A stretch of 37,054 nt of DNA from positions 10,143 through 47,196 of IMG/VR virus record IMGVR_UViG_3300000563_000005, one strand, 5' to 3'. Source of the DNA: a virus. Shown piece after piece: positions 6,839 through 37,054 of this stretch. The notes under the pieces were generated by a model, which saw only the letters and a program-made list of their open reading frames with translations, was not told the DNA's origin and searched no databases. A program made the position numbers and the translations under genes. Numbering within the stretch: position 1 is the first letter of the stretch; every line of letters begins with the position of its first letter.

Positions 6839-8967
6839 TTTATTACAATTTCTCCTTCTATTAATTCAATGAAGACCTCGTTGAGTTCTTCTTCCGTTTC
6901 GAGTAACTTATCAGCGAGTTTAGTTTCAATTAGATCCTGGATCACTCGCCTTAATGGTCTCGCCCCATATTTATCGGACCATCCTTTATCTACACAATAT
7001 TTCCGAGCTTCCTCAGAAATATTGATTTTAATTTTTGGATTCAAATCGACCAACAGTTTATCGAATATTAATCCGATATGCTCCATAGTTAACTTGTTAA
7101 AAAACACAATATTATCCACCCTATTTATGAACTCAGGTTGGAATGTATTTTCTACATCTTTGTCAACCATTTCTTTTACTGTCTCCTTATGGTCGCCAAA
7201 ACCAATCGTGGTCTTAGTCAGGTTACGGGCTCCAATATTACCAGTCATTATAATAATGGTATTCTGGAAGTCAACTTGTCTTCCCGATGAATCCGTTAAG
7301 TGCCCCTCCTCTAATATTTGAAGTAATACGTTATATATTTTAGGATGAGCTTTTTCGATTTCATCGAACAGAACCACTGAATAAGGTCTACGTCGAACTG
7401 CTTCGGTAAGTTTACCGCCTTCTTCGTAACCAATATACCCGGGAGGCGCTCCGATTAAATTACTTATCGTAAACTCTTGAGAAAATTCTGACATATCAAA
7501 TGCCAGAAAATGCTTTTCAGAATTGAACATCAACTTAGCTAATTGCTTAGCCAAATAAGTTTTACCTACACCGGTTGGTCCAAGAAATAGGAATGATGGG
7601 GCCTTTCGAAGCTGACTCGTCTTAACGCGAGCTCTTTTAACAGCTTTACTTAGTTCCCTAATTGCTTCCTCTTGACCTACAACCAATTTGTTCAAATCTT
7701 GCTCGAGCGTTTTTAGCTTTTCCCTGTCCTTTGCGGAAAGCTTATCCACCGGGATTCCTGTCATTGTTGCTACAACTCTTTGTACCACCGCTTCATCAAC
7801 CACTGCAGTTTTATTTAGTTTTGCTATACTTCCAGCTTCGTCTATCACGTCAAAACCCTTATCTGGAAAATTCTTATCCGTGATATAGCGCGCGCCTAGG
7901 TATACAACCTCTTCCAGGGCTTTAGGTGTAAACTGCAGATCATGAAACTTCTCGTACGAATAAACCGTATTTGTAAGAATCTCCAGGGTTTGGTCTTCGT
8001 TCGGCGGTTCTACGTATATCTTTTGGAACCTGCGCTCCAGCGCGGCGTCCGTCTCTATATGCTGTTTATATTCACGAGCGGTTGTTGCGCCTATGCAACG
8101 TATTTCTCCACGAGCCAGATACGGTTTTAATATATTAGCCGTATCTCCTTGGCCTTCCCGGTTACCGCTACCCACGATACCGTGAATCTCATCTATAAAC
8201 ACAATATAATCTGGATTACCGCGGAGATCCTGTATAACCGACTGCAATCGTTGCTCGAACTGTCCTCGGAATACTGCTCCGGAAATTAGGGCATTTAAGT
8301 CCAACATAAATATACGTTTATCCCGTAGAGGTTCCGGAACCTGTTTAGATACAATACGTTGCGCAAGTCCCTCAACTATGGCGGTCTTGCCGACGCCAGC
8401 TTCACCTATGAGTATAGGATTATTTTTGCGCTTTCTTCCAAGTATTTGAACTATGCGTTCCAATTCTGTTTCCCGATCAAATACCGGATCCAATTGATTT
8501 TGTTCAGCAGCTTCTATTAGATCTGTGGAGAAATGTTTAAGTGCGCCAGATTCCTCTTTGGGCTTTGGGGGCATAAATTCCTTACCAAAATAACCTGCCA
8601 TCCGTAAATGACGGTATGCTACGGTGTCCTCTTGGCTTATTATAGCCTCAAACAAATCATTTGAGGTAACTTCAGAACCCTGTGAAGATTCTTCGGCACG
8701 CTTTAGTATCAATGAGGCGCTTTCCCCGAATGACACTGCCTGCATCTGAAATCCTGGAGTCGGATACTTTAAATTCTCAACCAAACTAGATTCCAGTTTT
8801 GCGATGTTGTCAATTTTGGATATCAGAGTTTGGTGAGCACTGCATTTATCGGTTTGCACGATGGCTAATAATAAATGCGTACTTTCAATTCTGTTTTTAC
8901 CGTACTCTATACAGATCGTCTCAACCTGTTGCATAACTTCCTGTAGTTCTGACGAAAATGGTTTCAT
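6835..8967 (-). CDS. ClpA/ClpC-type AAA+ unfoldase with putative ClpP-docking loop
   Basis: Hexameric protein unfoldase of the Clp/Hsp100 class, 710 aa. Residues 1-140 resemble the Clp N-domain. D1 has Walker A GEAGVGKT (188-195), pore loop VFRGQFE and Walker B VFIDE (256-260). D2 has Walker A GPTGVGKT (463-470), pore loop GYIGYEEGG, Walker B VLFDE (to 536) and sensor 2 GARPLRR (668-674). The D1-D2 junction is short, without the coiled-coil middle domain of ClpB or ClpC, as in ClpA. An IGF tripeptide at 588-590 sits between NLTKTT and [11 protein letters not shown], exactly where ClpA has IGL and ClpC has VGF to dock ClpP. No clpP or clpS is seen nearby, so it may use host ClpP. Coupled to 5864-6838. 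Confidence 0.95.
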
Positions 8968-9128
8968 TTTTCAGCTTTCTGTAAATATAACAATAGAACA
9001 TACCAATAAGCCTTGGTATTATCCTTTTTTAGTTGATTTAATGATTTAAACGGAGCAATTGGCTCCGAAGGAATGTCAACGATACTAAGATTGTATTTCT
9101 TTAGTATCTTGGGAATTGTTATCTTCAT
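8964..9128 (-). CDS. Small basic protein, 54 aa
   Basis: Reading starts best at the ATG at 9128 (MKITIPKILKKYNLS); a TTG seven codons earlier is possible. It overlaps the end of thyX by 44 bases in another frame and its stop overlaps the start of the ClpA-like gene. Lys-rich N-terminus and a short hydrophobic stretch (AYWYVLLLYL) near the C-terminus. Function unknown; the tight coupling on both sides supports a real gene. Confidence 0.55.
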   Translation of the reverse strand: MKITIPKILKKYNLSIVDIPSEPIAPFKSLNQLKKDNTKAYWYVLLLYLQKAEK

Positions 9129-9921
9129 ATTTATCCAATTCTTCAAATGAAGACGGGAAATACTTTAGTGTAGCTTCGTATGTCCAAGGCATTTTCTCCT
9201 TGAATATCTTTAGTATTTCGTACGCGTAATCCCGTATCTCTTTTTGTGCATGTGATTCACAGCGCAAAATAAAGAAATTCATCAAAGATCGAGCGTTAAC
9301 CGTCCACGTAAATTGTGTATAATAAGCCGTTCCCAATACTCCACGCGCCAACTCCTTCGCTAATCCGGCTTCTTTTAACCAAGTATATATCCACTGTTGT
9401 CGGTACAACTCATGTTCGTATACCTGCCATAATTTTACTCTTTGATGATTATTACGATAATTTATTTTATAGAATGCATCATCATATATAGGATGATGAA
9501 ATGGAAATTCAAAACTAGCCAGGTCTGCGTCTACGCTGCCTTGCTTGTTTTCTTTTGATTGCGGTCTATATTTATCTGGACGGTGGAAATTATCAGCAAT
9601 TTTTTCTGTATATCGTCCAGACATCGTATTAATACTTGACCAACGATGCTTTACCCATTGAAAATGTACGTACAGCGGACATCTTATCCTGAACTGGAAT
9701 ACCGCGGCTTCTAGCGGTGTGCCGTGCTCGTGTTCTAAAAGGAAGTGTAATAATTTTCTGTCTTTTTCCGGACCTTTTAGATTTCCGGCATATGATGATC
9801 GTGCGGCTGCGACTGCTAGTTCATCCAGCGTTTTAGCGCACCCTTCATCTGTTTCTTCGGACACCAATGAGCCTACGAACTTAATCCAGCCATCTGTGCC
9901 TATTTTAATTTTTTCACTCAT
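9085..9921 (-). CDS. thyX: Flavin-dependent thymidylate synthase ThyX
   Basis: Makes dTMP from dUMP using FAD, NADPH and methylene-tetrahydrofolate, securing thymidine for phage DNA synthesis. The ThyX signature (RHRxxSxNExSxRY) is present as KHRWSSINTMSGRY at about residues 92-105: the first Arg is Lys and the Glu after Asn is Thr, while the central HR, S, N, S and RY are kept. The C-terminal core has GVLGTAYYTQFTWTVNARSL and HAQKEIRDYA, the substrate- and FAD-binding region of the family. Its length of 278 aa is somewhat above the common 220-250. It opens the unit that runs into the Clp-type gene, just after a terminator. ThyX is frequent in phages whose hosts may or may not use ThyA. Confidence 0.95.
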   Translation of the reverse strand: MSEKIKIGTDGWIKFVGSLVSEETDEGCAKTLDELAVAAARSSYAGNLKGPEKDRKLLHFLLEHEHGTPLEAAVFQFRIRCPLYVHFQWVKHRWSSINTMSGRYTEKIADNFHRPDKYRPQSKENKQGSVDADLASFEFPFHHPIYDDAFYKINYRNNHQRVKLWQVYEHELYRQQWIYTWLKEAGLAKELARGVLGTAYYTQFTWTVNARSLMNFFILRCESHAQKEIRDYAYEILKIFKEKMPWTYEATLKYFPSSFEELDKYEDNNSQDTKEIQS

Positions 9922-9937
9922 GTTAATTTTTATTAGT

Positions 9938-9966
9938 TAAAATAAAGGGCCCCTAGTTGGGGCCCC
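9938..9966 (-). terminator. Intrinsic terminator upstream of thyX
   Basis: On the minus strand a perfect 7-8 bp stem of G and C (9947-9966, loop of about five bases) is followed by TTTATTTT. It ends the transcript of the 208-aa signal-anchor gene and separates it from thyX. Confidence 0.75.
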
Positions 9967-9970
9967 ATAA

Positions 9971-10597
9971 TCAATATGTAAGGATGATGGCCCTTGAAAT
10001 ATCGGCCATTGCGTTATGTATATCATCTTCGTACATACGTTTTGAAGTAGCGGCTGACATAACACCATAATCTTCGATTATGGCAGATAACATTCTGCCA
10101 CTATAATGATCGTGAACATACGTACGTATTGACCCATATTTGGTTCTTTCCACATGAACCTTATCGCCAAATGTGGAATCCAACTGCTCCAAAAATGCGC
10201 GGTTATATTTAGTAAACGCGGGCCCATCCCCCTGTATCACCCTTGCGGCCATTGCAAATCCAGTACCTACGACCTTATCATTATAAATAAATGCTATAAA
10301 AGCGTAGTTACTATAACGATATTTGTCCGAAAAAATAATGACGTCTAGGTACCCATTGAACACTAAATGCTCTAACTCAACTTTGCTATCCGAGGGCATT
10401 CGCTCAAGAACACTTACTGCATGATTAAGCGATGAACCATATGGTATGGCTGGAAATAGACTTTCCAATGGCTCTTCGTCTGTTTGAACAGCTGAACTAC
10501 CGGATGTATCGATAAAATGCCCAACCGCCGAGATCACTAGAAGTGTGGCGATCAAGGACATTAAGATTCCTATAACCGTCTTTTTAGTCCCGGTCAT
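9971..10597 (-). CDS. Signal-anchored periplasmic protein of unknown function, 208 aa
   Basis: A very strong ribosome binding site (AAAGGAGGT) precedes the ATG. Residues 7-26 (TVIGILMSLIATLLVISAVG) form one membrane span after a short basic start (MTGTKK), so the rest likely lies in the periplasm. The soluble part has mixed beta and helix (LVFNGYLDVIIFSDKYRYSN, FIAFIYNDKVVGTGFAM) and no Cys. It is a single-gene unit: a promoter-like motif stands at 10641-10657 and a terminator at 9938-9966. Being separately and strongly expressed suggests a specific role, perhaps at the envelope, but no family is recognised. Confidence 0.85.
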   Translation of the reverse strand: MTGTKKTVIGILMSLIATLLVISAVGHFIDTSGSSAVQTDEEPLESLFPAIPYGSSLNHAVSVLERMPSDSKVELEHLVFNGYLDVIIFSDKYRYSNYAFIAFIYNDKVVGTGFAMAARVIQGDGPAFTKYNRAFLEQLDSTFGDKVHVERTKYGSIRTYVHDHYSGRMLSAIIEDYGVMSAATSKRMYEDDIHNAMADISRAIILTY

Positions 10598-10640
10598 ATC
10601 AACCTCCTTTTTGTTGGTGAATAAATTTACCTTACACTAA

Positions 10641-10657
10641 TCTTATACCATAATTTA
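10641..10657 (-). promoter_or_regulatory. Putative extended -10 promoter motif, copy 1
   Basis: On the minus strand the 17-mer TAAATTATGGTATAAGA lies 44-60 bases before the start of the 208-aa gene. An identical 17-mer stands at the same distance before the zinc-binding gene at 27387-27671. It contains TGnTATAAG, an extended -10, but no -35 match, so it could be used by host sigma70 or by the phage polymerase. Confidence 0.5.
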
Positions 10658-10900
10658 AGTAAATAGTTCCGTCATGACATCAGCTATATCCGTATTTGAT
10701 ACACCAAGTTCATGTAGGTTTTCAACTATAGCTTCACAATAGGGATCTATTTCTGCTATGAATTTATCCGGATTGATTTGGTTCAGAATCGTTATGGGGT
10801 CCGTCGTTGATTCGAACCGCACCTTTGATATCCACAGATCCCATATCTGGTTCTTGTAGGATTTTGTCTCTAATATCTTCTTTTTCGGCACGAGTGGCAT
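10655..10900 (-). CDS. Hypothetical small protein, up to 81 aa
   Basis: The ATG at 10900 lies 137 bases inside the upstream 208-aa gene. A GTG at about 10821, preceded by AAAGG-like bases, would give a 54-aa protein (VRFESTTDPITILNQ...). The C-terminal half is a convincing acidic helical sequence (YCEAIVENLHELGVSNTDIADVMTELF). The overlap means the start is unsure. It is the last gene before the promoter motif at 10641-10657. Confidence 0.5.
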   Translation of the reverse strand: MPLVPKKKILETKSYKNQIWDLWISKVRFESTTDPITILNQINPDKFIAEIDPYCEAIVENLHELGVSNTDIADVMTELFT

Positions 10901-11390
10901 AAAATAGTTCTCCTATAAACAAGCGTATAAGTTCGATTAGAGTTATTGGTGCGAACGGAACCACTACACCATCCTTATCTCTTAGCGCGTGGTCAATAAT
11001 GATTTCTACATTTTTGAAGGTAGGTACAAGATCATAATGAAGAGCCCACCAAGCTGCGTCTGTTTCGCCTACCATATGCAAATGCATGCCAAATTTAGAG
11101 AGTGATCTTCTTACCTTTATTCGGTCAAACTTTGCAGGTTGCGCAATTTCGTTAAACTGACTCTCAAGATCTCCGATATGATTTTGTAATAGTATAGATG
11201 AAAGTATCAAGTCCAATACTTGATCATCCCTGTATATAACATTATACAATCTTTTAGCTGTAACATTCTCTAGCTGTACAGGTTCAGTTAAAAAGGGGAG
11301 AATAGTATCAAATTGTAACTTGCTGTCTTCATCTCCCCTTGGATAATATATAATATTACTATCAGTAATTTTTACTATATTATGCATCAA
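10764..11390 (-). CDS. Phage protein of unknown function, 208 aa
   Basis: Start overlaps the stop of the TM/coiled-coil gene upstream (ATGA), placing it in the transglycosylase unit. Mostly helical with a Trp-Trp pair (TDAAWWALHYDLVP) and hydrophobic segments too broken up to be clear membrane spans. The last 40 residues are polar (GPHNDSEPNQSG) and overlap the next gene. No family recognised. Confidence 0.75.
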   Translation of the reverse strand: MMHNIVKITDSNIIYYPRGDEDSKLQFDTILPFLTEPVQLENVTAKRLYNVIYRDDQVLDLILSSILLQNHIGDLESQFNEIAQPAKFDRIKVRRSLSKFGMHLHMVGETDAAWWALHYDLVPTFKNVEIIIDHALRDKDGVVVPFAPITLIELIRLFIGELFYATRAEKEDIRDKILQEPDMGSVDIKGAVRINDGPHNDSEPNQSG

Positions 11391-12211
11391 AACCTCACAT
11401 GATATCCGACATTGAATGTGGAGTGGTGAAGGTCGTATGTGAATATATAGTTTCTGTAATATAACCCACCTTGTATATTCACAAACGTGTTATTAAACGC
11501 AATGCTACCAGCAGGCACTCCAGCGTATAATCCAGCATGGATTCCATACTGTCGCACAGGTCGTGCGGGTGCGGGCGCTGTATGTAGCAATCTAAATGCT
11601 TCGGGATCCATTTGATGAGATGCCGACAAATTGACTCCCGGTACTCCGGATACTGTACGTATCCGCCATATACCATCTTCATCACGACCCAACTCACTGT
11701 ATATAGGTATAGGATCTATATTGATAGATATGTCATAATAAGATGCGGGTAGGTTGTCAACATAGGCTCGCGTATATCCAGTATAATGTATTATATTTCT
11801 AGAGCCTGAAAAGTCAATCTGTAAGTATGCTCCCGTGGTATCTTCACCACTTATGGCATCGACAAATTGTTTGTCGTGTAAGCTATCGATCTCAGCTTGT
11901 AGTTCAGATGCAATACCTATCCAACGCTGTGCGCGGCTTCTTTCAGCGTTATAGCGATTAACCATGTCATTTAGATCACTATTTAAATCAGTAACTCGAA
12001 CTGCCAACGTATGTATGCTGTCGGCTTTCTGCTCGAGTTGTTCATTATACCACGCTTCATTCTGCGCTATCTGGCTCTCCGCAGCTTCCAATTCTGCGCG
12101 AGCTGCGTCACGCTGGGATTTAAAAGTACTAGCTGCTATTGTTAACGATACTATCATCAAAGCAACAGCAGCTATAACAAGTCCCGATGATCCTAATAAA
12201 TTTCCAATCAT
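11387..12211 (-). CDS. TM/coiled-coil protein with beta-barrel-like C-terminus (possible spanin-type)
   Basis: Residues 10-28 (GLVIAAVALMIVSLTIAAS) are a membrane span. Residues 30-115 are an Ala/Glu/Gln-rich coiled coil (RAELEAAESQIAQNEAWYNEQ), interrupted once. The C-terminal 60 residues are short amphipathic strands rich in Tyr and Gly ending in a terminal Phe (NVGYHVRF), like the last strand of an outer-membrane barrel. The glycosyltransferase fusion at 25466-27340 ends in the same HVRF. The gene follows the transglycosylase gene by two bases. A protein anchored in the inner membrane and reaching the outer membrane, next to a wall-cutting enzyme, recalls spanins, but this is inference. 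SD AGGAGAGAA. Confidence 0.8.
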   Translation of the reverse strand: MIGNLLGSSGLVIAAVALMIVSLTIAASTFKSQRDAARAELEAAESQIAQNEAWYNEQLEQKADSIHTLAVRVTDLNSDLNDMVNRYNAERSRAQRWIGIASELQAEIDSLHDKQFVDAISGEDTTGAYLQIDFSGSRNIIHYTGYTRAYVDNLPASYYDISINIDPIPIYSELGRDEDGIWRIRTVSGVPGVNLSASHQMDPEAFRLLHTAPAPARPVRQYGIHAGLYAGVPAGSIAFNNTFVNIQGGLYYRNYIFTYDLHHSTFNVGYHVRF

Positions 12212-12213
12212 TG

Positions 12214-12984
12214 TTATTTCTCTCCTGTGTATACATACGTGAATAGGTAAGGTTGTTCCCAGCTATCCAAGTAATTTTTAATTCTCATTACTTCACGCAC
12301 ATAGTTACGAGTTTCGCGATATGGGGGTATCCCTCCAAAACGCTGAACCGCTCGTGGGCCAGCATTATATGCAGCTAATGCCAAAGGTATGCTATTATAT
12401 CTATCTAGCATTGCACGTAAATATGCCGTTCCTCCCATAATATTTTGTTGGGGATCCCATACGTCCAATACTCCCACCTCCATGGCGGTGATATCCATTA
12501 ATTGCATTAGCCCCTTTGCACCCTTATGCGATTGGGCCAACACATTTGCATTGGATTCCACATATATGATTGCCTTGATTAAGTTGGGCTCAATATTATA
12601 CGTGTGTGAAGCTTGACAAATATACGGTAAGTATGTATTTAAACGATTCATAAAAACCACCTCTCTAACGTCGTACCTATTAAACTCGAATTCGTTTTGG
12701 GTTAAGTCCCTAAGAGCGTTTACCGCATCGAGTATTTCGGTAAATGAGGTGGACGTTTCTAATACATGCTGTATATTTTTGATTGTCTGGACAGTATCGA
12801 TTTCTCGATATATCTTGTCCGCAAAAAATAAGTGTACTCCATAAATATTACCGTTGAGATAAAATACCCCAGGTGGTGGAGTAACTTCCGGCTTTGGTTT
12901 AATTTGTGAAAATAGCAATAGTCCTAATATAAGAACTATCCATCCAAAAATGACGACTGTCTCTACTTTAGTAGGCTGTCTCAT
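12214..12984 (-). CDS. Membrane-anchored lytic transglycosylase (SLT domain)
   Basis: Residues 9-27 form an N-terminal anchor. From about 125 the goose-lysozyme-like SLT fold is clear: IKAIIYVESNAN with the catalytic Glu143, HKGAKGLMQLMDITA, NIMGGTAYLRAML and LALAAYNAGPRAVQ. The enzyme cleaves peptidoglycan by forming anhydromuramyl ends, in the periplasm. The anchor may act as a signal-arrest-release segment, in which case it would be a phage endolysin, or the protein may be a virion or envelope enzyme. Its start overlaps the stop of the 41-aa basic gene and it is followed at two bases by the TM/coiled-coil gene. Confidence 0.9.
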   Translation of the reverse strand: MRQPTKVETVVIFGWIVLILGLLLFSQIKPKPEVTPPPGVFYLNGNIYGVHLFFADKIYREIDTVQTIKNIQHVLETSTSFTEILDAVNALRDLTQNEFEFNRYDVREVVFMNRLNTYLPYICQASHTYNIEPNLIKAIIYVESNANVLAQSHKGAKGLMQLMDITAMEVGVLDVWDPQQNIMGGTAYLRAMLDRYNSIPLALAAYNAGPRAVQRFGGIPPYRETRNYVREVMRIKNYLDSWEQPYLFTYVYTGEK

Positions 12985-13106
12985 TTATTTTTCCCCTTTA
13001 TTGTTTTTGATTTTCGTTGCTGTTTACGCTTACCAGCAAATTTTTTAGCTATACCGGCCTTCTGCAAAGCCGCCTGTAACCCATCTTTATAACCTTTAGG
13101 CTTCAT
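12981..13106 (-). CDS. Basic microprotein, 41 aa
   Basis: A short frame with its own ribosome binding site (AGGAGAAAG) reads MKPKGYKDGLQAALQKAG and then a Lys/Arg-rich tail (FAGKRKQQRKSKTIKGKNK). It overlaps the end of the RNA ligase gene and its stop overlaps the start of the transglycosylase gene. The strong positive charge suggests binding to nucleic acid or membrane surfaces; function unknown. Confidence 0.7.
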   Translation of the reverse strand: MKPKGYKDGLQAALQKAGIAKKFAGKRKQQRKSKTIKGKNK

Positions 13107-14196
13107 CACTTTCTCCTAGCAACTCCCGTTGCGTCCTTAAAGTAAATTTGGATAAGTCGACATTACCAGTCTTCGATAATGAAAAAGCAATGCCTCTATC
13201 AATAGAATCAGAGTACACGTTGAGTATATGCTCAGCCTTTTCTTTTTGACTGGCGTCTTCTGGAAGTTGTTGTAAGGTTTCTTTGATACTTTCAACCTTT
13301 TTCAAATAGTCCTCATACTTTCGATATAGATTATCTGATAAACGAAAAGCTTCTTCTAACGATTCAAAATCATATAATTCTTTTAATGTTTCTTCAAAAG
13401 TATTTTTATCTGGACATCCTTGATTTATAAACAACTCACGTATACGCTTTTCAGTTAACTCTGCTTTGGCACGATGCTTTGCCAAATACCAATCAGACTT
13501 AACTTTTAAAATCTTCTGATCATTGTCATAGTATAGGCAGTATCCCTCTATACCTTCAACAACCAGTAAATATTTGATTAACTCCGATAAAGATTCAAAC
13601 TCCTGATTACATATTCGAGGTCTTGGTACGTCTAATTCATTCGCCAATACATCTAGCTCTAGTTGGTTATAGAGTGAGTAGTCCTCATGCCTAATGGCAC
13701 CTACCAGATATATGTCAGGTTCCATAGATTTAATTATTATGGTATTCCTTGGAGAAAGCCATTCATAAATATACGAAATATTTTGCTTACCTTCAAGTGC
13801 CCCGGGATATTTTTTGGATAATATATCGATTTCATCTCCGTTTGGATGATATCGTGCATTTAATTGTCGACGTGTTCGTATAATATCGGTATCTTTATAC
13901 TTACTGACTATTAAAGCGCTACCATCCAATTTCTCTATTATATTAACCCCCTCCAAATTACTTGGTGGTATTGGGAATAGATCGCGCCTTTCTCCTAGAT
14001 TAAAGAATTTCGGAAATGATGCTGATACTAGCTCACCATTTTCATTCCACAAACTTGACCTAAAGATCAGATTATCGGGTGTCCAAAACTCAAAGCTTAA
14101 CAGTCTTGGATATGTAAGATATAGCTTATGTCCATTGAGGTAATGTTCCCGTACGTGAAATATTGACCGATCAACGTCTTTCAGATTAATTCTCAT
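13096..14196 (-). CDS. RNA ligase, T4 Rnl1-like
   Basis: ATP-dependent RNA ligase that joins 3'-OH and 5'-phosphate ends through enzyme-AMP and RNA-adenylate steps. Visible nucleotidyltransferase motifs: I, EKLDGS (adenylated Lys near residue 89, the KxDG box); IIIa-like, ISYIYEWLSPRNTIII; IV, EGYCLYY; V, KVKSDWYLAKH, which is typical of the T4 Rnl1 group. The helical C-terminus (240-366) fits the Rnl1 tRNA-recognition domain. The ATG at 14196 is chosen because GAGGA precedes it; an ATG four codons earlier lacks a site. In T4, Rnl1 acts with Pnk to mend tRNA cut by host anticodon nucleases; kinase- and phosphatase-like genes are also in this window. Confidence 0.92.
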   Translation of the reverse strand: MRINLKDVDRSIFHVREHYLNGHKLYLTYPRLLSFEFWTPDNLIFRSSLWNENGELVSASFPKFFNLGERRDLFPIPPSNLEGVNIIEKLDGSALIVSKYKDTDIIRTRRQLNARYHPNGDEIDILSKKYPGALEGKQNISYIYEWLSPRNTIIIKSMEPDIYLVGAIRHEDYSLYNQLELDVLANELDVPRPRICNQEFESLSELIKYLLVVEGIEGYCLYYDNDQKILKVKSDWYLAKHRAKAELTEKRIRELFINQGCPDKNTFEETLKELYDFESLEEAFRLSDNLYRKYEDYLKKVESIKETLQQLPEDASQKEKAEHILNVYSDSIDRGIAFSLSKTGNVDLSKFTLRTQRELLGESDEA

Positions 14197-25465: not shown

Positions 25466-27340
25466 TTAGAACCTTACATGAATGCCGCCACCTACATATA
25501 ATCTTTCGATTCCAGTAAAATCAAAATTATTATGATAGTCCGCATTCACATAAAATATAGACACTCCAAATAACATACCGTAATTATAGTGCCCCAACTC
25601 ATTTGCAGCCAGATGGCTTTGGGCGCGAATTATACCATAACTTGCGCGCACATTGGCTACAGCTGTTATAGTTTTGTACCTAGCTAAATCCTGTATAAAA
25701 TCCAACGTATAAACAGTATTTAGACGGGTATGTGGTTCTACTGAATAATACCCTGCACCAACCATTATACTAGGAACTCCGTAGCCAGCACTCTGTCCAA
25801 AAGCAGTATACCCATACCGCGCTCCAACTCGCGCTGTATAATTCCCAACCCAATGTTCGTACCGTGCAAAGCCCAGAAGCCGATTATTATCACGGATACC
25901 TAAGTCAAGATGCCAGTTTCCAAGATATGCTCCAACATTCATTTGCGTGTAATGTGTATATGTAAACTGAACATACCCGGGACTATATCCCAAATATAGT
26001 TCGTGGTGTATATTGCGCTGGTTATCCGGAAGATCTATTATCTGATTAGCCTTGTAATCCAGTGTATATTCCCCCTGTGCTGATGCACTCAACGCAATAA
26101 ATAGCCCCAAGAACATGGAAATAGATATTCTCTTGGTAGGTTTCCACGCCGACTTTATAAATCTTTGTTTAATCCATACAAAGAAAGCAGCTATTCTTAG
26201 ATGCATTTGGAGTAACGTATAAAATGGCATCAAAAATACTGGGTACAAATAGTATTTTACTCTTCGATATACTAATAATTCTAGCCCCACGTATAACAGA
26301 TAAACCAAGGCCAATACGCTCCAAGTGCCGGTTAAGGCTAATACCCATACACTCAGTATCTTGATTGGATCAGTCACCAAAGTATATAGTAGATAAGCCA
26401 TTTCATGTCGTAATCGTATCGAGACATTCCTCCCAAACAATAAGCGAATTGACATTGGCAGTTTGTGCCATAAACCTGGCCACCAACCGAATACTCGCTG
26501 TTTTAGGAACCCTTTTAATGTGGTGGGAACCTCGGTGTGAACGTTTTCGTTAACAAAAATCACACGACCTTTTAAGAATAGCTCTATCAGTGTTCTTTCC
26601 AAATCTTCTCCTGCAAATACCCCCGTATGGAGTTCGATCTGTTCAAGCAGTCGCTTAGTTTTAAATAAACCACTCGCGCCACTAACACATTCTACAGATC
26701 TTGTTTTGGAGGCAAACACCTTACCAATCAACATACTTTTGCCGTATTCATTCGTTTGAAGAGCATGTAAAACTTTTTTGAATATGTTTTTTGTTTTAAT
26801 TGGCATTGGCGATACATTAAATGCTATCGCGTCAGCCTCTCCGGTTGCCAGTAATGAAACAGGCATGTTGCTTACAACAATCTCAGTATCACTATCCACC
26901 AAAAAAGTGTAATCATATGTGACGTATTCCAGCCCCTTGTTTATCGCTGTAACCTTACCCACATTCTTGTGAAGTTTTATGAATAGCACCTCAATATCAG
27001 AATTTTTAATTTTGACGGTGTATATGTGTTTTTCATCGTCATGCTCTAATAGAGATGCATTGGTTACTTCGGGAAGGGATGCAACTACATCTAACATATC
27101 TTCTTTACTACAGTCATCCACCAATATGATTTGTTTCGCGTGTTGACTTTCCAGATCTATGCACGATAAGAGTGTGCTCGCAACGACTGGGTCATTATAC
27201 ACGGGAATAACCACTGAGAATGGATAAGTGTTGGGCGGAATTTCTAGTTTTTCCCTTTTTGACAGTGTTTCTATAAATATTTTAATACCATCAACTAGGA
27301 TTATAACCAGAAATACCCATAAAAATATGGATAATTCCAT
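25466..27340 (-). CDS. Family-2 glycosyltransferase fused to a probable outer-membrane beta-barrel
   Basis: Residues 1-23 are a membrane span. Residues 40-290 form a GT-A family-2 domain: FSVVIPVYND, IILVDDCS, FLVDSDTE with the metal-binding DxD (149-151), AGEDLERT with the catalytic acid, and KQRVFGWWPG in place of QxxRW. Two to four spans follow (315-395). At 405-422 a second signal-like segment appears (ISMFLGLFIALSASAQGE) with an AxA-type cleavage site. Residues 424-624 are amphipathic strands rich in Tyr and Gly, ending in GGGIHVRF with terminal Phe as in outer-membrane barrels. In E. coli a GT2 (YaiP) and a barrel (YaiO) are separate neighbouring genes; here one frame holds both types. 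Single-gene unit with its own terminator. Sugar donor and product unknown. Confidence 0.88.
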   Translation of the reverse strand: MELSIFLWVFLVIILVDGIKIFIETLSKREKLEIPPNTYPFSVVIPVYNDPVVASTLLSCIDLESQHAKQIILVDDCSKEDMLDVVASLPEVTNASLLEHDDEKHIYTVKIKNSDIEVLFIKLHKNVGKVTAINKGLEYVTYDYTFLVDSDTEIVVSNMPVSLLATGEADAIAFNVSPMPIKTKNIFKKVLHALQTNEYGKSMLIGKVFASKTRSVECVSGASGLFKTKRLLEQIELHTGVFAGEDLERTLIELFLKGRVIFVNENVHTEVPTTLKGFLKQRVFGWWPGLWHKLPMSIRLLFGRNVSIRLRHEMAYLLYTLVTDPIKILSVWVLALTGTWSVLALVYLLYVGLELLVYRRVKYYLYPVFLMPFYTLLQMHLRIAAFFVWIKQRFIKSAWKPTKRISISMFLGLFIALSASAQGEYTLDYKANQIIDLPDNQRNIHHELYLGYSPGYVQFTYTHYTQMNVGAYLGNWHLDLGIRDNNRLLGFARYEHWVGNYTARVGARYGYTAFGQSAGYGVPSIMVGAGYYSVEPHTRLNTVYTLDFIQDLARYKTITAVANVRASYGIIRAQSHLAANELGHYNYGMLFGVSIFYVNADYHNNFDFTGIERLYVGGGIHVRF

Positions 27341-27782: not shown

Positions 27783-28457
27783 TTATCGATCACGTTCTCT
27801 TGACCTGGACGGAGTATTTCTTGTTGTTTCACGAGATCTACTTTCTTCACGCGAACGCGAAGGTGTCTGTCTTACCTCAGGTTGTCTTGTCCTGCTTGGT
27901 GTCTGTCTTACCTCAGGTTGTCTCGTTCTGCTAGGAGCTTGCCGTGTTTCAGGCTGTCTTGTCCGGCTTGGCGTTTGTCTTGTTTCCGGCTGTCTTGTCC
28001 TGCTTGGTGTCTGTCTTACCTCAGGTTGTCTTGTTCGACTTGGTGTCTGTCTTACCTCAGGTTGTCTTGTCCTGGTAGGTGCAGGTCTTGTCTCGGGCTG
28101 TCTTACTCTGGCCGGAGCTTGCCGTGTTTCAGGTTGTCTGGTGCGTGTTGCACCAAATGTGCGCACAGTCTGCGGTCTGTATACAAATGCAGACTGAGGA
28201 CGATAATGGTATGGTCTATAATACCATCCGTAATAATACGGCCGGTACCAATAAGTAACCCTATAAGGGTAATACCAATAGTACGACGTGTGCCAATAGT
28301 AACTCGGATAGTATCCATAGAAAAATACCCGATGTGGCACGTGTTGTACGTGGTATACGTGTGTCCTCACGGTAACCGGTTCGCGAACACCGACTTTAGT
28401 GTAGACACATCCTGAAAATAGCATTACTGCTATTAATATTAACATTATCTTTTTCAT
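27783..28457 (-). CDS. Tyr-rich, repeat-containing lipoprotein, 224 aa
   Basis: Signal peptide MKKIMLILIAVMLFSGC with a lipobox (LFSGC, lipidated Cys17) sends it to the cell envelope. Residues 40-95 are extremely rich in Tyr, Trp, His and Pro (YYPSYYWHTSYYWYYPY). Residues 105-205 are about eight 12-residue repeats (RTRQPEVRQTPS with E/V or A variants), strongly basic and Pro-rich, ending in an SR-rich tail (PSRSRERDR). An extended, positively charged envelope protein could bind wall, LPS or nucleic acid; none is proven. GGAGGT site and a consensus sigma70 promoter point to strong expression by host RNA polymerase. Confidence 0.85.
   Translation of the reverse strand: MKKIMLILIAVMLFSGCVYTKVGVREPVTVRTHVYHVQHVPHRVFFYGYYPSYYWHTSYYWYYPYRVTYWYRPYYYGWYYRPYHYRPQSAFVYRPQTVRTFGATRTRQPETRQAPARVRQPETRPAPTRTRQPEVRQTPSRTRQPEVRQTPSRTRQPETRQTPSRTRQPETRQAPSRTRQPEVRQTPSRTRQPEVRQTPSRSREESRSRETTRNTPSRSRERDR
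27862..28145 (-). repeat. Tandem 36-bp coding repeat, about eight units
   Basis: The DNA repeats every 36 bases, in frame with 12-residue units, with point differences concentrated at the variable codons (Val/Thr, Thr/Ala). Copy number could change by slippage or recombination without breaking the frame. Confidence 0.85.
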
Positions 28458-31421: not shown

Positions 31422-31721
31422 CTATTCTGGTAAAATTTCTAGTTTATCATTCACTAATATTTCAATACAATATTCCGGTTTTGTAAGTATTGCTTTTATC
31501 AAGGTCATTCCCCAATAACTTCTTTTAAAATCCCCAGACGGCTTTACCTGACATACAACATGTAAAAACCTATCTAGTTCTTCGGGATCAATTAAATGGC
31601 CATTTACATACATATAAGCTTTATAATATTTTGCCTCTAATATATTTCTAGCATATAAACCTATAAAGTTAGGAGGTTCATATGCAAAACATAATTCAAC
31701 TGGCGTATTAAGTATTTTCAT
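31422..31721 (-). CDS. DPEY-family protein, 99 aa (outlying member)
   Basis: Carries the family's two boxes: YVNGHLIDPEELDRFL in the middle and KAILTKPEYCIEIL near the C-terminus. Asp of DPEY is Lys here. It is separated from the main group (33170-36680) by the exonuclease and two other genes. The N-terminal 45 residues (MKILNTPVELCFAYEPPN) are specific. Function of the family is unknown. Confidence 0.75.
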   Translation of the reverse strand: MKILNTPVELCFAYEPPNFIGLYARNILEAKYYKAYMYVNGHLIDPEELDRFLHVVCQVKPSGDFKRSYWGMTLIKAILTKPEYCIEILVNDKLEILPE

Positions 31722-31734
31722 AGTTTAATTAAAG

Positions 31735-31890
31735 CGCGCCCGGCAGGGTTGAAACCTGCATCCCTCTTGCACATCGTTGCACCCGGGAACAGATGGTACC
31801 ATCCTATGTTACCGAGTGTGTCCAATAACCGCCCACTACTTCTGCGGTGGGGAACCTCTCGCTGGCTGCGTCTACTTCCGCCACGAGCGC
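31735..31890 (-). ncRNA. tRNA-like structured RNA with enlarged middle (156 bases)
   Basis: On the minus strand GCGCTCG (31890-31884) pairs with CGGGCGC (31742-31736) as a 7-bp acceptor-like stem. TGGCGGAAGTAGACGC resembles the D-arm start of tRNA-Leu, though without the GG pair. GCAGG-TTTCAAC-CCTGC just before the 3' strand is a T-arm-like hairpin. Between them lie about 95 bases with no normal anticodon arm: a CCCAC/GTGGG hairpin, an 11-bp-long arm ACTCGGTAACA/TGTTCCCGGGT (one mismatch) capped by GATGG/CCATC, and TGCA/TGCA. No CCA is encoded. The segment is clearly more GC-rich than its neighbours. It could be a degenerate tRNA-Leu or a novel tRNA-like RNA. Confidence 0.45.
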
Positions 31891-31896
31891 AATATT

Positions 31897-32121
31897 TTAT
31901 TTTATTTTAAATCCTATAGAAATGTTATTTCTAGTTGTTACAACGCCAATTATAATTATAGCCATTACAGTAATCCACGACCCTACTGCAAGAAGAATGG
32001 ATATTCTCCTATCTGATTTGTATTCTTGCTCTGCAAGGTCAGGGACCATCTTTTGTATTGTACCAAAAGATAATCCATACGCTAGAAATGCTCCTACTAA
32101 ATATATTAATATGTATATCAT
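31897..32121 (-). CDS. Two-span membrane protein, 74 aa
   Basis: Spans at about 2-20 and 43-63 (ILLAVGSWITVMAIIIIGVV), a charged loop between (VPDLAEQEYKSDRR) and a basic tail (GFKIK). It ends six bases before the tRNA-like element. Unknown. Confidence 0.7.
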   Translation of the reverse strand: MIYILIYLVGAFLAYGLSFGTIQKMVPDLAEQEYKSDRRISILLAVGSWITVMAIIIIGVVTTRNNISIGFKIK

Positions 32122-32127
32122 AATTTC

Positions 32128-32496
32128 TCACTTATTATACCATTGAACATGAGTACAGTCATCGCGTATCTTTCCGGTAGTTACGTCACTGGGTATAATA
32201 CTAATGTCAGTTAGCTTACCGTCCTTAACATACTCACCGAAACCATCGGTGTCCACAAAACTGCCATTCTCGCATAGTGTTTTAAATTCTTCGAGCGTCA
32301 TTGGATTTGTCGCATCTCCTCTATCGTGTGGCTCCAAGACTAGTCGAAGTTCCCTGTAGAGCTCTTGTAGCTCGTTGCGCTCTTTCTCTATAGCCTTCAA
32401 AAACTGATCGTAATCCAGATCATACATTTCATCCATAGTCTGCGCAATAGATTTACTTATCTCTTGTATCTTCTGTTCGATTTCCTGTTGCGTCAT
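32128..32496 (-). CDS. Coiled-coil protein, 122 aa
   Basis: AGGAGGAATT precedes the ATG. Residues 1-55 form a long charged helix (MTQQEIEQKIQEISKSIAQT), followed by a beta-rich end (FGEYVKDGKLTDISIIPSDV). Not recognised. Confidence 0.75.
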   Translation of the reverse strand: MTQQEIEQKIQEISKSIAQTMDEMYDLDYDQFLKAIEKERNELQELYRELRLVLEPHDRGDATNPMTLEEFKTLCENGSFVDTDGFGEYVKDGKLTDISIIPSDVTTGKIRDDCTHVQWYNK

Positions 32497-32585
32497 AATT
32501 CCTCCTTTAGTGCTTGTTTAAATTCAACCAGAGGTATGCTACGAGCTAATGGCTCCAACTTACCTTCCCACTGTATTGTATACAA
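32493..32585 (-). CDS. Possible microprotein, 30 aa (TTG start)
   Basis: The gap between the exonuclease and the 122-aa gene holds a frame starting TTG at 32585: YTIQWEGKLEPLARSIPLVEF and a helix KQALKEEL. Its stop overlaps the next start (ATGA), as for real genes here, but there is no ribosome binding site. Confidence 0.35.
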   Translation of the reverse strand: MYTIQWEGKLEPLARSIPLVEFKQALKEEL

Positions 32586-32606
32586 ATGTTATACTATCGT
32601 GCTGGT

Positions 32607-33173
32607 TTAACTGATCTCGAAGTTTTGTTGTTTTAGTTGGGTAGCGATGTCGCATAAATACTCTATTTGAGATAAGCAATCCACCAGAGATGTATGATCT
32701 ATCCCTGAACGTTCTGGATGGTCCCTATAGTACTCGTATGTTTCACGGGCTAATGAGCGCATTGTACGTACGTCACGCACGCAATTATATTTAAACGGCG
32801 GCTGTTGACGCAAACGCAAATATGCATTTCTAAGTATAGGCATATCAAAATCAGGGGCAGTACACCAAATATATGTGTCCTCGGACCCTATTTTGTCGAA
32901 CCACTGCCGGAATTCATATAACGCCTGACCCAACGATGTGGGATCCTTCTGCATCTGTTTTTGTGCCTCCCGGTCTTGATTCATCCACCAATATATCGTA
33001 TCGCCGTCCACCTCGCATCCTGCATCTATGCTGGATTGAGGGTGGATTTGGCGTTCGAACGTTGAGTATATTTCTTTTGTGTACAAGTTAAAATGTGCTG
33101 CACCTATGGAAAGCATCACTGCATTGGATGTCTTTCCAAGGGTTTCTAAATCTAGCATTATGTGTTTAATCAT
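32607..33173 (-). CDS. DEDD 3'-5' exonuclease (Rv2179c/RNase T-like)
   Basis: Motif I is MLDLETLGKTSNAVMLSIGAA (Asp8, Glu10), followed by FERQIHP and DTIYWWMNQDREAQ, a pattern typical of the Rv2179c-like 3'-5' exoribonucleases. Motif II is WCTAPDFDMPIL (Asp in FDMP). Motif III is HTSLVDCLSQIEYL, with His and Asp. At 188 aa it is a single catalytic domain. It would trim RNA or single-stranded DNA 3' ends with two metal ions; which one is not shown. Overlaps the upstream DPEY gene by four bases. Confidence 0.88.
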   Translation of the reverse strand: MIKHIMLDLETLGKTSNAVMLSIGAAHFNLYTKEIYSTFERQIHPQSSIDAGCEVDGDTIYWWMNQDREAQKQMQKDPTSLGQALYEFRQWFDKIGSEDTYIWCTAPDFDMPILRNAYLRLRQQPPFKYNCVRDVRTMRSLARETYEYYRDHPERSGIDHTSLVDCLSQIEYLCDIATQLKQQNFEIS

Positions 33174-33427
33174 TTCTTCAGTTCTATTTTAATTTTATAT
33201 TCTGGATCATCGAACAAGCAAGCAACTACATCACTTGGAGTGTGGTCTTTAATATATGCCAATATAAATCTTCTAAGCACTATAAAGTTATAGATCACAT
33301 CGTCATCGACCTTTACTCCGTTCACTGTAACACTTAACCTCCTGAATATCGCCCTAAGTGTACAGTTGTTGCGATTCTCGGCCGTAGAGTACATATTTAA
33401 AGATTCACTAAGAGTCATTTCTTCCAT
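33170..33427 (-). CDS. DPEY-family protein, 85 aa
   Basis: VTVNGVKVDDDVIYNFI and CLFDDPEYKIKIEL are the family boxes. Start at Met1 (33427) or Met4. It overlaps the upstream gene by 20 bases and the exonuclease by four. Function unknown. Confidence 0.75.
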   Translation of the reverse strand: MEEMTLSESLNMYSTAENRNNCTLRAIFRRLSVTVNGVKVDDDVIYNFIVLRRFILAYIKDHTPSDVVACLFDDPEYKIKIELKK

Positions 33428-33818
33428 TTAATTCTTCTTTCATTATCTCGTTTATCCAACGCCTTGCTGTATCAGTTTTTATTTCCATTAATTGTATTGC
33501 GCTTTGTTCAGCTTCTTCATCTGATTCATACGTCTTTCTAAATACACTTCCATCAGTAAACCGTAGTTTTAGTTCAGCTTTATCATATACTTTGCCGTTG
33601 ACGAGCTTCCAATCTTTCCCCTCTTTATTCTTTCCTATTTCTACAGGTATGTATCCACTCGCATATCCAACCTTTATATATGCAATCTTTGATCCAAAAA
33701 ACCCAAATATTCTAGTTTCTACATATTTATAAAAACTAGAAATTTGCTGGGGGATAACTTGTATATTTACTAAGTTGTCTAGGTTATAATAATTCTTTAT
33801 CATATTCTTCTCCATCAT
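33408..33818 (-). CDS. Hypothetical protein, 136 aa
   Basis: Start overlaps the stop upstream (TGATG). Two beta-rich stretches (KIAYIKVGYASGYIPVEIG; AELKLRFTDGSVFRKTYESD) and a C-terminal helix. It lacks the DPEY boxes although it lies among that family. Confidence 0.75.
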   Translation of the reverse strand: MMEKNMIKNYYNLDNLVNIQVIPQQISSFYKYVETRIFGFFGSKIAYIKVGYASGYIPVEIGKNKEGKDWKLVNGKVYDKAELKLRFTDGSVFRKTYESDEEAEQSAIQLMEIKTDTARRWINEIMKEELNGRNDS

Positions 33819-34096
33819 TGCGTCAAGGTGGTATAATATTCATATCCATCTTCACCAACAAAAGCACCATCAATATGTATTATGTCAGTCTCTTTGTAGA
33901 TTAATTTGCCATTATAATATCTCGAGATATGTAGCTTTTCCTTCGTTCCATATCTACACTCTACTAACGACGTGTGATCATTCCATAACAAAACTCTTAC
34001 AGTATGAGGACAGTTAGGAAATCTTTTTAGCATATCTTTTGTTACTAACATAATCTGATTTTTTAGCTCCTCTATATCAATTTTAATGTCGTTCAT
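33815..34096 (-). CDS. Hypothetical protein, 93 aa
   Basis: ATGA overlap with the DPEY frame upstream. N-terminal acidic helix, then strands (TVRVLLWNDHTSLVECRYG; ISRYYNGKLIYKETDIIHI). Not recognised. Confidence 0.72.
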   Translation of the reverse strand: MNDIKIDIEELKNQIMLVTKDMLKRFPNCPHTVRVLLWNDHTSLVECRYGTKEKLHISRYYNGKLIYKETDIIHIDGAFVGEDGYEYYTTLTQ

Positions 34097-34383
34097 GGTA
34101 TGTATGTTTTATAAGTAAGTATAATATATTGTGAACTAGAGTTCATAGTTACCTCATATTCAGGGTCATTAAATATGTTTAATATTAGATCTCGAGCGTC
34201 TATTTGCTCCATAGTTAGGTTGCCAGGATTTATAGGAATAAACATTCCCAAATAATTAGCAAAATCTTCGGTGTCAAGTTGAATACCATTTACAGTGACT
34301 CTATATTCATGTAGTGCGTTCTTTACACGGTCACTAAGTAAAGCTTTAAATTTGCTTAAGTATAATTTTATTTGTGTGATAAT
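34093..34383 (-). CDS. DPEY-family protein without a standard start codon
   Basis: A clear family member: YRVTVNGIQLDTEDFANYLG and LILNIFNDPEYEVTM. The stop overlaps the next start (ATGA). The frame opens after a TAG at 34386-34384 but holds no ATG, GTG or TTG before the conserved boxes. Initiation at ATT or ATA, ribosome slippage from the upstream member (34346-34609), or loss of the start are all possible. End certain, start unknown. Confidence 0.6.
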   Translation of the reverse strand: MITQIKLYLSKFKALLSDRVKNALHEYRVTVNGIQLDTEDFANYLGMFIPINPGNLTMEQIDARDLILNIFNDPEYEVTMNSSSQYIILTYKTYIP

Positions 34384-34609
34384 CTATTATCGTTAAATGA
34401 TATTCAAAATCTTCAAATATCATTTCCAGAATACTTTGGGGTACTATTACGCATGCTGAAGTCTGCATCCTGCACCCCATCATTTTATAAATAAATGGTA
34501 CATCAAATGCATCTGGGGTTATTATAACTCCATTAACGTTTATACCGAGCCTATTACCATTATCTGCGCTGTAAAAGCTATTATTTAACAAATCTATTAT
34601 TATATGCAT
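34346..34609 (-). CDS. DPEY-family protein, 87 aa
   Basis: INVNGVIITPDAFDVPF and LEMIFEDFEYHLTIID are divergent family boxes (DFEY instead of DPEY). It overlaps the upstream member by 10 bases and the start-less member downstream by 38 bases. Unknown function. Confidence 0.75.
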   Translation of the reverse strand: MHIIIDLLNNSFYSADNGNRLGINVNGVIITPDAFDVPFIYKMMGCRMQTSACVIVPQSILEMIFEDFEYHLTIIDYHTNKIILKQI

Positions 34610-34863
34610 ATTTTTTCACATCTTAATTCGTACTCCGGATCATCGAACATAGCAAGCAGCTGGTTCCACTGGACAAAGTAAGTATCCATCATGAACATAT
34701 ACACATCTTCAGGTTCCACTAGTATATTATTCACAAATATATGGAACTTCACTTTGCCGGTCCTGACCACATTTTGGTTTATGTGGTTGTAGTTGTATGT
34801 ATACCGTATGAAAAAACTGTTTCCTGGATGCACACATATTTTAGTTAATGGATGTAGGTTCAT
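34600..34863 (-). CDS. DPEY-family protein, 87 aa
   Basis: FVNNILVEPEDVYMFM and LLAMFDDPEYELRCEK are the family boxes. N-terminus aromatic (NSFFIRYTYNYNHINQN). ATGA overlap with the 178-aa gene upstream. Confidence 0.75.
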   Translation of the reverse strand: MNLHPLTKICVHPGNSFFIRYTYNYNHINQNVVRTGKVKFHIFVNNILVEPEDVYMFMMDTYFVQWNQLLAMFDDPEYELRCEKICI

Positions 34864-35396
34864 ATCACCATTATTCGATCAGCTAATAATACTGATGGAT
34901 TAGTTGGCTTAGCACTGATTTTATATGCAAATACCGGCGCTATGACTAAATCATCACGCTTACGGAATCTATTAAGATAGTCCCCGGCATGCTCTAGTAA
35001 GCGGAATATATGAAAACCTGACCAATACATTGTCCCTTTACCATCTCGAACTCTTTTTATATCGGCTACCATCCATTTTCTTATCGGCAGCTCACGGCTT
35101 CGATTAACTCCATGATATAAAAACTTAAGCCTATCATCTTTAGTTCGACGCACTATTTTATAATATACTTGTCTTCCTACCACTGTAACACTAGCGTATC
35201 CCTGAGCGTAGGCTTTTACCTCGTTACGCTGACAAGCCCGAAGGGCGGCAGGAAAACTGTTGTATGTGCCTACATCTTCTTGATTGTGGTTATCTTTAAA
35301 TACATAATAAGGTAATAAGTTCGGGTGATCCTGGTACTGAATAAAGCACCCTCTATACCACCATTCATTTGTTTCAATTGCTACTGGTTTTAACAT
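34860..35396 (-). CDS. Conserved phage protein, 178 aa
   Basis: N-terminal part WWYRGCFIQYQDHPNLLPYYVF...YNSFPAALRAC and C-terminal part LPIRKWMVADIKRVRDGKG...YWSGFHIFR, then VLLADRIMVI, resemble a two-part protein I recall from large phages. No catalytic motif is visible. It overlaps a DPEY member at each side and may be served by the same unit. Confidence 0.78.
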   Translation of the reverse strand: MLKPVAIETNEWWYRGCFIQYQDHPNLLPYYVFKDNHNQEDVGTYNSFPAALRACQRNEVKAYAQGYASVTVVGRQVYYKIVRRTKDDRLKFLYHGVNRSRELPIRKWMVADIKRVRDGKGTMYWSGFHIFRLLEHAGDYLNRFRKRDDLVIAPVFAYKISAKPTNPSVLLADRIMVI

Positions 35397-35625
35397 CTGT
35401 TATCTCTACACTATATTCTGGATCATTAAAAAGCTCTAATACTTGTAAATTAGCATATGTGTTTCTGCCTGATTTAATTGTTGTGGTACATATTCCATTG
35501 TGCAGCACGAATTCTTGTAGTTCTGCCCATATAACGGGTTGTCCGTTTACTACTATTTGAAATTGGTCCCACTCCACTACTATACGCTCTGTTGTTAAAT
35601 CGAGCATTGTTATTGATGGATTCAT
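35374..35625 (-). CDS. DPEY-family protein, 83 aa
   Basis: IVVNGQPVIWAELQEFV and LELFNDPEYSVEITD. N-terminus MNPSITMLDLTTERIVVEW. It overlaps the 178-aa gene by 23 bases. Confidence 0.75.
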   Translation of the reverse strand: MNPSITMLDLTTERIVVEWDQFQIVVNGQPVIWAELQEFVLHNGICTTTIKSGRNTYANLQVLELFNDPEYSVEITDVKTSSN

Positions 35626-35632
35626 TTAATTA

Positions 35633-35710
35633 TTAGTTCCATATTATCTCCAGGTTATACTCGGGATCCTCAAATAAATCTCTAATTATTTCTAACATAT
35701 TTTTATCCAT
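35633..35710 (-). pseudogene. Truncated DPEY-family remnant, 25 aa
   Basis: Only the C-terminal box remains: MLEIIRDLFEDPEYNLEII. The frame is open back to about 35755 but the VNG box is absent and no ribosome binding site is seen. It looks like a decayed or rearranged copy between two intact members. Confidence 0.55.
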
Positions 35711-35724
35711 AGAAATAGTTTCAC

Positions 35725-35853
35725 TTATTGAGTATAACACAAACCAAACTGATTTTCACATTTTTCTAGCAGTTGTTCTCGTATACTTTTGTCGCATGTA
35801 GTCATTCCCCATAAATTTATTAAAGACTCCATTTGTTCAAATCGGTCTTTCAT
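35725..35853 (-). CDS. Microprotein, 42 aa
   Basis: MKDRFEQMESLINLWGMTT, then CDKSIREQLLEKC and ENQFGLCYTQ. It overlaps the end of the upstream DPEY gene by 17 bases. Helical; unknown. Confidence 0.55.
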   Translation of the reverse strand: MKDRFEQMESLINLWGMTTCDKSIREQLLEKCENQFGLCYTQ

Positions 35854-36139
35854 ATAATACCTCGTTATGTGCTAGCTTACCATCTTGGTACAGTTGTATT
35901 TCCGAAGTATACTCAGAATCAGTGAAGTATAGAGTAATAGTATAAAATGTTACATAGTTTCTTCTCCACCTATATCGACTAGAAAAGCGCATAAATTCTG
36001 CAAAATCTATCTCTGTATCGTTAACTATTATCTTAACTTCGAATAGCTGCATCGGTAGCTCAAATAATAGCTTACCATTAAACTCATAAAAGACGTGTTC
36101 ATTTATAAGTATCATATATATACCCTCGTACATCCACAC
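35837..36139 (-). CDS. DPEY-family protein, divergent (DSEY), 92-100 aa
   Basis: VKIIVNDTEIDFAEFMRF and LYFTDSEYTSEIQL are changed forms of the two boxes. Met9 (MILINEHVFYEFNGK) is the likelier start. The C-terminus runs on with QDGKLAHNEVLYERP. Confidence 0.7.
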   Translation of the reverse strand: MWMYEGIYMILINEHVFYEFNGKLLFELPMQLFEVKIIVNDTEIDFAEFMRFSSRYRWRRNYVTFYTITLYFTDSEYTSEIQLYQDGKLAHNEVLYERPI

Positions 36140-36145
36140 ACGTAT

Positions 36146-36382
36146 TTATTCATGATAAATTCTATAATTGTATTCTGGATCTTCAAACATATTTTCGATA
36201 CTACTTCTGTTTATAGTATAATCTCGTCCCGCCACCGCAGGTCTTCCCGAAAAAAGTATAAAATATACAGGATCAATAGTTACACCATTAACTATTATTG
36301 TTACTTTTTTCCCGTCTTCGGTTTGTAAATGGGTTGGTTCTTTTTCGGGCTTTAGATGGATGAAATATATATGGTTTGTCAT
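36146..36382 (-). CDS. DPEY-family protein, 78 aa
   Basis: VTIIVNGVTIDPVYFILF and IENMFEDPEYNYRIY. It overlaps the upstream member by 95 bases in another frame, so the upstream C-terminal extension or this N-terminus may be non-functional. Confidence 0.72.
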   Translation of the reverse strand: MTNHIYFIHLKPEKEPTHLQTEDGKKVTIIVNGVTIDPVYFILFSGRPAVAGRDYTINRSSIENMFEDPEYNYRIYHE

Positions 36383-36680
36383 GATTTTCTATCTTTATCG
36401 TTAACTCGTATTCTGGGTCATTAAATAGATCTAAGATAACTGAAAAGGCTATGTCATAATAAATACCCAATCCCGATGCATAACGGGTCATCAAATGTGT
36501 ATATATCTGTGGAAATCTCGATTCAATAAATTCCGTTGGGTCTATAGCTTCTCCGTTTACGTACATAGTTACCTGTTCATTAGAATTAGTTAATCTAATA
36601 TGGTTATTTTGTGTTAAAATATCAACGCAAAAGCTTAGTATAGGTCCGGTATTCATATTTTTAGCCTGTTTTTTAATCAT
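36288..36680 (-). CDS. DPEY-family protein with basic C-terminal extension, 122-130 aa
   Basis: The clearest member: VTMYVNGEAIDPTEFIESRF and VILDLFNDPEYELTIKIE. After the box a basic tail follows (SKARKRTNPFTNRRREKS) that exists only here and is encoded in the overlap with the next gene. Start at Met1 (36680) or Met9 (36656), where AGG lies upstream. Confidence 0.75.
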   Translation of the reverse strand: MIKKQAKNMNTGPILSFCVDILTQNNHIRLTNSNEQVTMYVNGEAIDPTEFIESRFPQIYTHLMTRYASGLGIYYDIAFSVILDLFNDPEYELTIKIENHDKPYIFHPSKARKRTNPFTNRRREKSNNNS

Positions 36681-37019: not shown

Positions 37020-37054
37020 TTATCCTAATTGTTTTTTAAGTTTCTCTTGCAATA
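37020..37054 (-). CDS. 3' end of an upstream gene (partial)
   Basis: The last ten codons of a minus-strand frame entering from the right edge, LQEKLKKQLG and stop. Helical and charged; too short to identify. Confidence 0.4.
   Translation of the reverse strand, partial: LQEKLKKQLG

Follow-up and report, generated by a model that had tools for sequence, protein, structure and literature searches.

The array and its genomic setting

At least 11 strongly diverged copies of one small gene are clustered within 6 kb of a large phage. They were found in a virus record of 48,707 bases, of which positions 10143-47196 make up the window, the whole stretch of 37,054 nucleotides that was analysed. The record probably represents one part of a large phage's genome, and relatives traced via the beta' subunit reach 210 kb. 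The window's share of the family amounts to nine ORFs and a truncated remnant (Table 1). All copies lie on the minus strand, closely packed and with short overlaps, and between them sit unrelated ORFs, one encoding an exonuclease and several matching no family. The array region at 34-36 kb has the lowest GC content of the window (0.344 vs 0.357-0.414).

Table 1. Members of the array and associated features (window positions unless stated otherwise; LOO, leave-one-out)
Position	Strand	Feature	Boxes or remarks	Score
31422..31721	-	Family member, 99 aa	VNGHLIDPEEL ... TKPEYCIEI	LOO E 2.4e-4
33170..33427	-	Family member, 85 aa	VNGVKVDDDV ... FDDPEYKIKI	LOO E 1.7e-9
34093..34383	-	Family member without standard start	VNGIQLDTEDF ... 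FNDPEYEVTM	LOO E 8.4e-9
34346..34609	-	Family member, 87 aa	VNGVIITPDAF ... FEDFEYHLTI	LOO E 8e-6
34600..34863	-	Family member, 87 aa	VNNILVEPEDV ... FDDPEYELRC	LOO E 3.5e-6
34860..35396	-	Unrelated ORF within array, 178 aa	No family match; both ends overlap array members (ATGA coupling)
35374..35625	-	Family member, 83 aa	VNGQPVIWAEL ... FNDPEYSVEI	LOO E 2.4e-8
35633..35740	-	Truncated remnant	DPEY half only (LFEDPEYNLEI)	21.2 bits vs best 8.7 in 500 shuffles
35837..36139	-	Family member	VNDTEIDFAEF ... FTDSEYTSEI	LOO E 4.6e-5
36146..36382	-	Family member, 78 aa	VNGVTIDPVYF ... FEDPEYNYRI	LOO E 1.5e-10; model pLDDT 82
36288..36680	-	Family member, 130 aa	Basic C-terminal tail	LOO E 1.1e-13
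Record 47377-47637		Eleventh copy	Beyond window's right edge	Profile E 2.2e-18
Record 47165-47392 (window part 37023..37054)	-	Possible twelfth, damaged copy	Contains N bases	E 0.057

An earlier sequence-only reading had placed ten members here, one of them decayed and another without its start, and had proposed a search for more beyond the right edge. All ten ORF ends hold on the minus strand, and the two damaged copies are as it described them. The copy at 35633 keeps the second of the family's two sequence boxes alone, and in the copy at 34093 the open frame spans 34096-34383, with its earliest ATG, GTG or TTG (34251) downstream of the first box. That a +1 frameshift links 34346 to 34093 is speculation. 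Past the right edge, the search yielded the eleventh copy and, adjoining it, the possible twelfth, which ranked as the top or second-highest non-member in the leave-one-out runs. The copy at 36288 extends about 30 residues beyond the domain and overlaps the coding region of 36146 by 95 nt in a different frame, while the start of the 35837 copy is probably the ATG at 36115, with GAGGG ahead of it, rather than the GTG at 36139. The encoded proteins are mostly acidic, with a net charge of -1.4 to -7.4 in nine of ten members.

The wider record encodes RNA polymerase beta and beta', a LAGLIDADG intein, a reverse transcriptase, MoxR- and VWA-type proteins, a ClpC-like unfoldase, ThyX, a T4-type RNA ligase and an Rv2179c-like 3'-5' exonuclease. 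The two RNA polymerase subunits form a single open frame (record 6222-13445, plus strand; L002 6327 to window 3306), with the intein in its beta part and some N bases within the stretch. Related phages have a shorter single frame of about 2,030 aa, so the beta/beta' fusion is common to them. The reverse transcriptase is retron-like (L002 529-1422, minus strand; PADLOC RT_XIII, E 5e-74), and about 1.1 kb upstream of it holds no ORFs of 60 aa and no Rfam match. Three related phages conserve it at 41-48% and in the identical position, next to VWA, MoxR and RNA polymerase genes, which makes it an apparent core gene. The unfoldase (window 6835-8967) combines AAA_2 with ClpB_D2-small and has an IGF loop of the ClpP-binding type. 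The related phage G012 encodes both ClpP (L102 19258-19863, minus strand; PF00574, E 2e-74) and a ClpC-like unfoldase.

Three further features of the window were recorded. On the minus strand at 31730-31891 lies a tRNA-like stretch with the acceptor GCGCTCG/CGGGCGC, a Leu/Ser-like D arm, a canonical T arm (GCAGGTTTCAACCCTGC) and about 90 additional nucleotides in the interior; it was called by neither ARAGORN nor Rfam, and its fold stability is not above that of shuffles (z -0.56). An ORF at 25466-27340 (minus) encodes a family 2 glycosyltransferase fused to a C-terminal outer-membrane beta-barrel-like part ending in F. Another, at 27783-28457 (minus), is lipoprotein-like and contains repeated RTRQPE(V/T)RQ(T/A)PS units.

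One old family held together by two boxes

A profile built from the family and run on the 48.7-kb record matched 11 copies, one of them outside the window, and found nothing among reversed ORFs. A profile inevitably recovers the sequences it was built from, so the ten near-complete copies were also sought one by one, each with a profile of the remaining nine. All ten were recovered, at E-values from 1.1e-13 to 2.4e-4 and scores of 17.8-47.4 bits, against a background (200 shuffles of each copy and 1,327 further ORFs from the record) that never exceeded 11.6 bits. At the level of sequence, these comparisons demonstrate that the copies share a common ancestor and constitute a single protein family. 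The paralogy claimed by the sequence-only reading is thereby upheld, and the concern it raised that the boxes might arise by chance is answered by the same background. An ORF at 33815-34096 reached 11.4 bits at best; lacking both boxes, it was left out.

The signature itself proved looser than first described. The earlier reading gave it as VNG..IDP followed by F.DPEY, and both boxes are indeed present, in relaxed form. Box 1 consists of VN followed by G, D or N, with V-N kept by every window copy that retains the box and IND in its place in the eleventh. Box 2 is degenerate in three copies: 31422 (TKPEY), 34346 (EDFEY) and 35837 (TDSEY). The sole invariant of all copies is the E-Y of box 2. 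When the boxes were masked, one of ten members outscored 299 of 300 shuffles and a further two outscored 294; the others stood out little or not at all. Since masked members barely exceed shuffles, with one clear exception, the family appears to be united essentially by its boxes. Synonymous codons underlie the identical box residues in 162 of 302 pairwise comparisons, so the boxes are maintained by selection at the protein level.

Outside the boxes, comparison of the copies documents near-complete divergence, together with the decay of at least one copy. Pairwise identities between copies are 15-36%, with the maximum in the adjacent, overlapping pair 36146/36288, in keeping with the repeated duplication and strong divergence first proposed. 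The array DNA contains short repeats only, mostly centred on the DPEY codons, which rules out a recent duplication origin. Considering also that similarity outside the boxes is nearly gone and that box codons vary, the copies are old.

Predicted fold and the search for relatives

An AlphaFold2 model of the 36146 protein, built with a nine-sequence alignment, is a confident alpha/beta structure (pLDDT 82, pTM 0.66). It comprises strands at residues 5-9, 18-21 and 26-31, a tight VNG turn, a helix at 38-44, a strand at 54-58, a helix at 59-65 and a final strand at 73-77. ID(P) opens the first helix in this model, and DPEY sits between the final helix and the final strand. For the diverged 31422 protein the model is poor (pLDDT 55). 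Its core runs strand, VNG hairpin, helix, helix, strand as in 36146, and one shallow alignment underlies both models. From the confident model we infer that the boxes are what keeps the scaffold together. Box 1 would correspond to a beta strand, followed by the tight VNG turn and then a helix with ID(P) as its cap, and box 2 to the end of a helix and a DPEY turn leading into the last strand. The family proteins are small (about 80-100 aa), of predicted alpha/beta type and probably cytosolic. No His, Cys, Ser or Lys is conserved across the family, making an enzymatic role unlikely.

Structural searches of PDB and BFVD with Foldseek gave no convincing relative (best E 0.89 and 0.42, respectively), and the best VIA-align score (Z 2.2) was not above background. 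The best VIA-align rows, spanning 53-58 residues, were the PDZ domains of LIMK2 (8gi4) and syntenin (1obz), in which a hairpin followed by a helix is reminiscent of the VNG region. In PDZ domains, further strands and a helix come before that hairpin. With a score at noise level, the family was not assigned to PDZ.

The sequence-only reading had recognised no known family, and the libraries searched agree. Pfam, PHROGs and NCBIfam returned no meaningful match, the best single-member E-values being 0.15, 0.075 and 0.044, respectively. Matches to GerD (one member, E 0.15), lumazine synthase (one member, E 0.044) and tRNA threonylcarbamoyladenosine dehydratase (profile, E 0.17) were at noise level. 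PADLOC, a library of defence rather than anti-defence proteins, matched none of the three members scanned. A tblastn search with one member against 50,697 phages gave nothing convincing (best E 0.4), and a profile search of 35 related viral records gave nothing at E up to 1, with the 11 matches in the family's own record as positive control. The box-2 pattern occurred once in 34 related records, a match judged to be chance. Gapped two-box DNA patterns picked out 8 and 1 stretches in viral contigs and 38 in a genome collection, none of which was a relative on profile check; a few small ORFs among the pattern matches have an isolated F.DPEY alone in common with the family. Because collection scans may omit the record itself and its near neighbours, close kin may exist unseen.

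The syntenic relatives L011, L015 and L017 share the reverse transcriptase, VWA, MoxR, RNA polymerase and unfoldase genes with the record at 37-53% identity, yet no copy of the family turned up there or in the other related records and flanks searched. A shared core without copies found beside it marks the family as an expansion specific to this lineage, lying in an accessory stretch of the genome. As a sequence family it appears new to the libraries searched, while an expanded, diverging array of small proteins in a virus is of an already known kind.

What the copies might do

We speculate that the copies are anti-defence or host-takeover binders built on a shared scaffold, a reading we favour tentatively and by analogy. 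The sequence-only reading had suggested an arms race or interchangeable binding modules, a proposal that is plausible as a hypothesis. Old tandem duplications would have multiplied one small scaffold gene in the accessory region of the phage, leaving the surface outside the scaffold-holding boxes free to change. Each copy would then bind and block a different host protein, whether of a defence system or a takeover target, and the retention of many diverged copies would widen the range of hosts or defences that the phage can meet. The family resembles sets of host-directed binders in being small, much copied, without a conserved catalytic residue, changed save at positions that look fold-determining, and accessory in location; the compact fold of the confident model, the synonymous variation in the boxes and the mostly acidic charge also speak for it. 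The identities of 15-36% are a sign of age, not of adaptive change. Counting against binders, the three members scanned had no PADLOC match, though with the limits of that library, and the truncated copy and the start-less copy also fit a drift of redundant genes.

Such drift is the first alternative. The copies would be redundant accessory duplicates under weak constraint, their fold just soluble, with no distinct functions and heading for loss. The half-domain remnant at 35633, the start-less 34093, the tail of 36288 running into the next gene, the degenerate boxes of three copies and the possible damaged twelfth would all be expected of genes in decay. Dead genes would, however, have gathered stops, and at least eight frames of 78-130 aa are still open despite wide synonymous change. 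We regard drift as rather unlikely.

Still less probable is a single hetero-oligomer or paired assembly, in which the variable surfaces would be partner interfaces between paralogues. Genes that run in one direction, closely packed and in part overlapping, would co-produce such subunits, and the modelled copies are predicted to share a fold core. Against this, the copy number is untidy, with a remnant and a start-less copy, other genes unrelated to the family lie in between, and kin with the same core genome yielded no member. Known Clp adaptors are small and diverse, the phage itself encodes an unfoldase with a ClpP-binding-type loop and its syntenic relative L102 encodes ClpP; even so, it is highly improbable that the copies are adaptors each delivering one host protein to the unfoldase for destruction, as they show no Pfam similarity to MecA, ClpS or other adaptors (only chance families at E up to 1) and kin with the same unfoldase show no family member in the stretches searched.

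Known systems offer parallels for the binders that we favour. The Sulfolobus rudiviruses SIRV1-3 carry AcrID1 arrays in which many diverged copies of a small protein lie close together in one virus genome, many of them uncharacterised, as here; the 12 AcrID1 homologues of SIRV2 have been interpreted as products of duplication that may have diversified in function (PMC11065993). The resemblance is one of pattern, not of family: no sequence relation was found, and the array here belongs to a large phage that encodes a multi-subunit RNA polymerase of its own. Phage T4 amplifies its small anti-toxin gene tifA under defence pressure (PMC9391042), likewise placing a small phage gene in multiple copies, with host-defence pressure being a feature of tifA. 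The tifA copies are fresh and arose under experimental selection, whereas those of the array are ancient and, beyond their two boxes, can hardly be recognised.

A more ambitious proposal, which we consider a long shot, is that a new scaffold here forms a library of about a dozen host-protein binders, possibly serving as target-recognition adaptors for a phage-encoded ClpC/ClpP machine. The two boxes in any case provide a usable signature of the family. The array occurs in a little-described group of large phages, which have a single frame for RNA polymerase beta and beta' as well as a conserved reverse transcriptase. If its copies are anti-defence or takeover binders, they would offer natural variants of a single scaffold, ready for use in identifying host targets.
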